NCBI GenBank assembly: GCA_021804785.1 | Contig: JAJZGY010000002.1 | Coordinates: forward strand, 62,001-126,000 | From: Pseudomonadota bacterium | Lineage (GTDB): Bacteria > Pseudomonadota > Alphaproteobacteria > Micropepsales > Micropepsaceae | DNA length: 64,000 bases | Direction of reading: 5' to 3' | Part shown: one piece after another, positions 33,259 to 33,291 of the stretch | Layout of the letters: each line of letters begins with the position of its first letter | Numbering within the stretch: the first letter of the stretch is position 1 | The notes under the pieces: model-generated | The model's input: the letters and a program-made list of their open reading frames with translations, nothing else | Databases searched by the model: none | What the model was told of the DNA's origin: nothing | Program-made: the position numbers and the translations under genes

Positions 33259-33291
33259 TTGCAGGTGCGTGGAATTCTACATATAATGTAG
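33259..33291 (+). promoter_or_regulatory. Promoter with overlapping dyad operator upstream of the ferredoxin reductase gene
   Basis: TTGCAG (33259-33264) and a perfect TATAAT (33282-33287) are separated by 17 bases. The -10 box lies inside a perfect inverted repeat, CTACAT-ATA-ATGTAG (33277-33291), so a bound dimeric repressor would block polymerase. The gene starts 40 bases further on. The regulator is unidentified. Confidence 0.6.

Follow-up and report, generated by a model that had tools for sequence, protein, structure and literature searches.

A conserved inverted repeat at the ferredoxin–NADP reductase promoter of Micropepsaceae and its counterpart at the SUMT gene

Comparison of related sequences showed that the promoters of the ferredoxin–NADP reductase gene (fnr) in Micropepsaceae carry two conserved blocks at near-constant spacing, and that the second of these, an inverted repeat here called O2, is common to the uroporphyrinogen-III C-methyltransferase gene (SUMT). 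On this comparative evidence we lean, with slightly better than even confidence, towards O2 being the operator through which a single transcription factor controls both fnr and SUMT in this family. An earlier note on the same window (the whole 64,000-nucleotide stretch of DNA that was analysed) had assigned the operator to a perfect dyad over the −10 box of fnr; it had the right promoter and the right idea, but the wrong palindrome.

The fnr promoter and its two conserved blocks

The features of the window given here with coordinates lie on its plus strand. The fnr gene (33332..34360) encodes a 342-aa product of the pyridine-nucleotide-disulphide oxidoreductase type; among solved structures its closest relative is 5ygq, a Ferredoxin--NADP reductase (E 3.6e-148), and NCBIfam gave only sub-threshold matches of the thioredoxin-reductase type. 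Its ATG is at 33332, 40 nt past the dyad, with an in-frame GTG alternative at 33320, and the gene is followed by that of a 102-aa [2Fe-2S] ferredoxin (34381..34689), whose relatives of solved structure, 3hui among them (E 3.8e-26), are named ferredoxin. Upstream of fnr, a −35 box TTGCAG (33259..33264) lies 17 nt before a −10 box TATAAT (33282..33287). Most aligned fnr promoters have TTG at the corresponding position and TATAA is conserved, in agreement with the earlier assignment of a promoter to the reductase–ferredoxin pair; judged by its conservation in relatives, the promoter is real. It was missed by a consensus promoter scan because TTGCAG agrees with TTGACA in only three of the six places.

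Upstream regions of fnr were collected from 79 Micropepsaceae loci (30 and 49 in two collections), leaving out shorter or split copies such as G008, G034 and part of G083. Two alignments were made, A1 with 47 of the 79 regions, chosen for the presence of both blocks and for variety, and A2 with 29, and the 47 chosen promoters revealed two islands of conservation with a drifting stretch between them. Block 1 consists of TTG and then TTnTACATATAA, that is, the −35 box, the end of the spacer and the −10 box; TTnTACATATAA, which joins the left arm of the dyad to the −10 box, is conserved in relatives. The putative half-site H1 (TTCTACA, 33275..33281), conserved as TTnTACA, contains the left part of the dyad. 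Block 2, just downstream of block 1, is a conserved inverted repeat, TnnTACA-N9/10-TGTnnAAT, represented in the window by O2, TTCGTACA-AGAAGAAAG-TGTTAAAT (33304..33328), the proposed operator and the sole ACA-N9-TGT within 33183–33345.

Both blocks were present in 62 of the 79 regions, which makes O2 an inverted repeat by the promoter that is conserved in orthologues; at the thresholds used the other 17 lacked one or both blocks, and the block 2 threshold was also reached by 181 of 1580 shuffled flanks. The TACA words of the two blocks were 30 bp apart in 42 of the 62 regions and 31 bp in 13, so that 55 regions had one of these two spacings, which correspond to about three helical turns; spacings of 29, 28 and 22 bp were found in three, three and one region, respectively. 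From the TGT of block 2 to the first aligned protein residue, used as a stand-in for the fnr start codon, the distance ranged from 11 to 91 nt (mean 29, sd 17). A spacing that is fixed towards the promoter and free towards the gene suggests that block 2 acts on DNA.

Block 1 and the two blocks together were specific for fnr. The block 1 pattern was found in 19 of 69 genomes of the genus, at one place in each and always at fnr, with no match for the reversed control. When one mismatch was allowed, 10 of 16 genomes had a match, again at one place each and at fnr, against two for the reversed control; the window's own genome had no match in this search. A model of both blocks gave 76 matches in 96 genomes of the family, 69 of which were fnr promoters; the other seven had E values from 0.112 to 8.35 and one of them (G027:C196) was SUMT. 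Across 385 genomes of the class the same model gave matches at E ≤0.01 in 23, including four Micropepsaceae at fnr; for the other 21 class matches listed (E 2.2e-4 to 0.0081), tblastn detected no fnr at the 16 loci fetched, so that among the fetched matches no fnr with the two-block model was seen outside the family. The block 2 pattern alone matched 56 places in 44 of the 69 genomes (30 at fnr, four at SUMT and 22 elsewhere) against six control matches; 15 of the 26 places away from fnr were inspected, namely those obtained as loci. As the patterns were derived from the same relatives, these counts speak for specificity and not for independent discovery.

Other versions of the promoter were also seen within the family. 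In L037 and L128 (from R. electricum, a member of Micropepsaceae), L122, L124 and L143 the fnr promoters were diverged, with a TTTTTAyAATTATAG-like sequence and no clear O2. In L151–L156, from another genus of Micropepsaceae, block 1 takes the form of the short palindrome TACATGTA, compared to TACATATA in the genus of the window.

The element at SUMT and at other genes

The block 2 pattern also matched the start of SUMT, a gene present in 79 of the 96 genomes, from which 50 loci were taken and 47 anchored. In 28 of these 47 loci, including that of the window's own genome, where the site reads ATATAACATTAATAGGAATGTGTAATG (L300), TACA followed the start of the best TGTGATACAAT match, representing the −10 region, at a distance of exactly 17 bp. 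This spacing played no part in finding the loci. The remaining 19 of the 47 did not have it, and an unanchored search found it in 23 of 41. Element scores of at least 8 out of 10 were reached at 28 of 43 SUMT loci, compared to 3.75 in shuffles (maximum 8), and scores of at least 9 at 11 of 43, compared to 0.17 (maximum 2); the 43 loci exclude the three discovery loci but include L271, whose genome was also matched by the block 2 pattern. By reading, a second full TACA-N9-TGTG was identified over the −10 region, 30 bp upstream, in L277, L286, L296 and L302, of which the unanchored search marked only L277 and L286; this tandem is the arrangement that H1 suggests for fnr. At its downstream end the SUMT element overlaps the start codon, and the N9 often resembles a ribosome-binding stretch.

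A joint model was built from an alignment (A3) of 26 fnr and 21 SUMT sites, with L305 dropped. At E ≤3 it gave 32 matches in 23 of 36 genomes, 18 at fnr, 11 at SUMT and three at other places; in the window's own genome only fnr and SUMT were matched, both of whose sites belong to the training set.

With regard to further targets, L181 has ACA-N9-TGT before cysD. By our own count, 21 of 30 cysD upstream regions hold TATTTCAC, often with TGGGATA nine bases on, but not the full element, and the region of the window's own genome has only GTGTACAATC. The cysD upstream sequences point only weakly to this gene as a possible third target. A second cysD-like copy in the own genome (G000:C48:20635-21525, L384) is 58% identical and has two stop codons in the aligned stretch.

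Two additional places were observed. In L189 (764–784, G027) and L199 (1501–1521, G049), TTTCATACA-N9-TGTGRAAT lies next to the gene for a CarD-like protein, for which NCBIfam gave only a weak mfd match; the gene on the other side of the element ends in KFFSDKPGTGS and KYFSPKPGTGS, respectively, and the G027 place was also listed by the joint model. In L209 and L326 (both G063:C3), TACA-N9-TGTGAAATATT immediately precedes the start of a protein of 263 aa.

Proposed mechanism, alternatives and candidate regulators

In the proposed mechanism, fnr would be transcribed from a sigma-70-type promoter (TTG-N17-TATAA-like) with the operator O2 just after the transcription start, which is expected at about 33294–33296, and the similar half-site H1 (TTnTACA) 30–31 bp upstream of O2, beside the −10 box. 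A factor, as a dimer or a tetramer, would bind O2 and reach H1, three helical turns off on the same face of the DNA. Bound in this way it would block RNA polymerase, and its release would allow transcription of fnr together with the ferredoxin gene. SUMT would be under the control of this factor as well, in such a way that the supply of electrons and of siroheme would change together. We infer the binding of a protein, repression rather than activation, the signal and the identity of the factor; at fnr, H1 belongs to the core promoter region as well. Confidence in the mechanism is held down because the 17-bp spacing fails at part of the SUMT loci and because the models were trained on the relatives on which they were tested.

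The need for a dedicated regulator could be dispensed with if block 1 were no more than a strong core promoter and block 2 were a signal in the leader or for the start of translation. The presence of the −10 box within block 1 agrees with this, as does the SUMT element, whose last bases fall in the start codon (...TGTGAAATG) and whose N9 is often purine-rich. We nevertheless consider it unlikely, given that at fnr block 2 lies at a widely varying distance from the protein and at a hardly varying one from the promoter, and that the same inverted repeat is found at two genes whose −10 regions differ in type. That block 2 works as RNA, either a hairpin or a protein-binding leader site, is very unlikely, since although ACA could pair with TGT and 93.1% of the alignment cells are standard pairs, none of the pairs varies on both sides, shuffled pairing was as good in 385 of 500 cases, no consensus fold was found, and no Rfam family reached the gathering score in 32000–36500; the invariance of the pairs itself speaks neither for nor against such a structure.

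For the preferred reading, a DNA operator common to both genes, a physiological sense can be suggested. SUMT produces precorrin-2, from which both siroheme and cobalamin derive. Sulfite and nitrite reductases use siroheme, and their electrons may come from reduced ferredoxin. With these roles, joint control would fit sulfur or nitrite assimilation, and it would perhaps serve sulfite or nitrite reduction; fnr and SUMT may be read as the electron-supply and siroheme genes under one shared regulator. A bolder version, possible but rather doubtful, is that sulfur (or nitrite) assimilation in Micropepsaceae is under a regulator not yet described, which would take the role played by CysB in gammaproteobacteria and would couple ferredoxin reduction to siroheme synthesis through TTnnACA-N9-TGTnnAA operators arranged in tandem at a distance of three helical turns. 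The control of sulfate assimilation in alphaproteobacteria is not settled: in a 2025 study of Agrobacterium the only CysB relative found was a distant one, and the authors suggested that control of the cys genes may have passed to LsrB and OxyR (PMC11975290). An element conserved at both an electron-supply gene and a siroheme gene lends itself as bait for the responsible protein.

No regulator gene was seen adjoining fnr or SUMT when the lists of open reading frames were inspected by eye. Well-known sites were also searched for: the RirA iron box (TGA-N9-TCA) was absent from 33183–33345, and the FNR/FixK (TTGAT-N4-ATCAA) and CRP (TGTGA-N6-TCACA) words were absent both from this stretch and from the 64 kb. 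The genome has three Rrf2 genes, the first IscR-like and located before a cysteine desulfurase-like gene, the second RirA/NsrR-like and the third directly before cysK (cysteine synthase A). The last of these is taken as a candidate, and only that, for the regulator of O2 because of an analogy with CymR, which together with CysK controls cysteine metabolism in Bacillus subtilis (PMC9338935), the likeness being the position of the Rrf2 gene directly before cysK. Its product scores 62.6 bits against a cut-off of 195 for the CymR model, and no O2-like element was seen upstream of the gene.

Two further systems offer parallels on the side of the reductase. FinR of Pseudomonas aeruginosa is a LysR-type regulator encoded divergently beside fprA, with the box TATCCATATTCTGGATA (PMC5302815); the likeness consists of a ferredoxin–NADP reductase gene, a dedicated regulator (here proposed) and a palindrome near the promoter, but in our case the T-N11-A core is missing and no divergent LysR neighbour was seen. 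With respect to this core, expected for LysR-type proteins like FinR or CysB, no pair of columns reached at least 70% in A2 (n = 29), and the best T/A pair had both bases together in 14 of the 29 sequences. In the same species IscR controls fprB (PMC4521836), an instance of Rrf2-family control of a reductase gene comparable to the present one in that the genome has an IscR-like gene; the IscR motifs described (type II, and both from Caulobacter; PMC11475020) are not TACA-N9-TGT as compared by eye. A literature search, surveyed at listing level, found no published regulator of the fnr–ferredoxin pair in alphaproteobacteria.

The dyad over the −10 box

The dyad CTACAT-ATA-ATGTAG (33277–33291), with TATAAT wholly inside it and TTGCAG 17 nt before, is exactly as the earlier note read it, but we judge it coincidental or lineage-specific. 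By itself it is not beyond chance: with spacers of 0–8 nt and nested frames counted, the 64 kb hold 264 perfect dyads with 6-bp arms, and when the 149-nt intergenic stretch was shuffled by mononucleotides 2000 times, 17.7% of the shuffles contained at least one. In the window no second copy was found with up to three mismatches, the two matches being both strands of one site, compared to a mean of 0.18 in shuffles. The search of the genome for further copies that the earlier note proposed likewise led to a single place in 3.29 Mb for CTACATNNNATGTAG, in which both arms are together.

As an operator the dyad was rejected, since it is not conserved upstream of fnr orthologues, an outcome that the earlier note had itself listed among those counting against it. 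Among the 66 of the 79 fnr promoters that align on block 1 the number of dyad pairs kept, of six, was 0 in three promoters, 1 in 19, 2 in 29, 3 in 10, 4 in three, 5 in one and 6 in one; only the window has all six and only one neighbour has five. The left-arm word TACAT is present in 49 of the 66, whereas the exact right arm ATGTAG is found in the window alone, and the two nearest orthologues, both 95% identical, read CTACATATAGTGTAG (five pairs) and CTACATATAATGCCG (four pairs). Of the repressor-blocked layout proposed earlier there remains a real promoter, probably controlled by a regulator; the dyad as its operator does not stand. O2 is distinct from it, as it starts 13 nt after the end of the dyad and is ACA-N9-TGT, compared to ACA-N5-TGT for the dyad. 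The case is a warning that the perfection of a dyad at a −10 box can mislead if the conserved site is to be found a few bases further on.

It is highly improbable that the dyad is itself an operator that arose recently in this lineage, with or without O2: it is perfect, covers the −10 box and has a near-copy in one neighbour, but it is gone from the other 95% neighbour, its exact right arm is unique to the window, and it is matched by a comparable dyad in the above fraction of shuffles and occupies one place in the genome. A slight excess of arm pairing across the 66 promoters also speaks for it (mean 1.97 compared to 1.79 when permuted, a level reached by 13 of 2000 permutations in one run and seven of 2000 in another). 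This small excess may come from shared descent, and it persisted without the window and its two neighbours, when 27 of 2000 permutations were as high.
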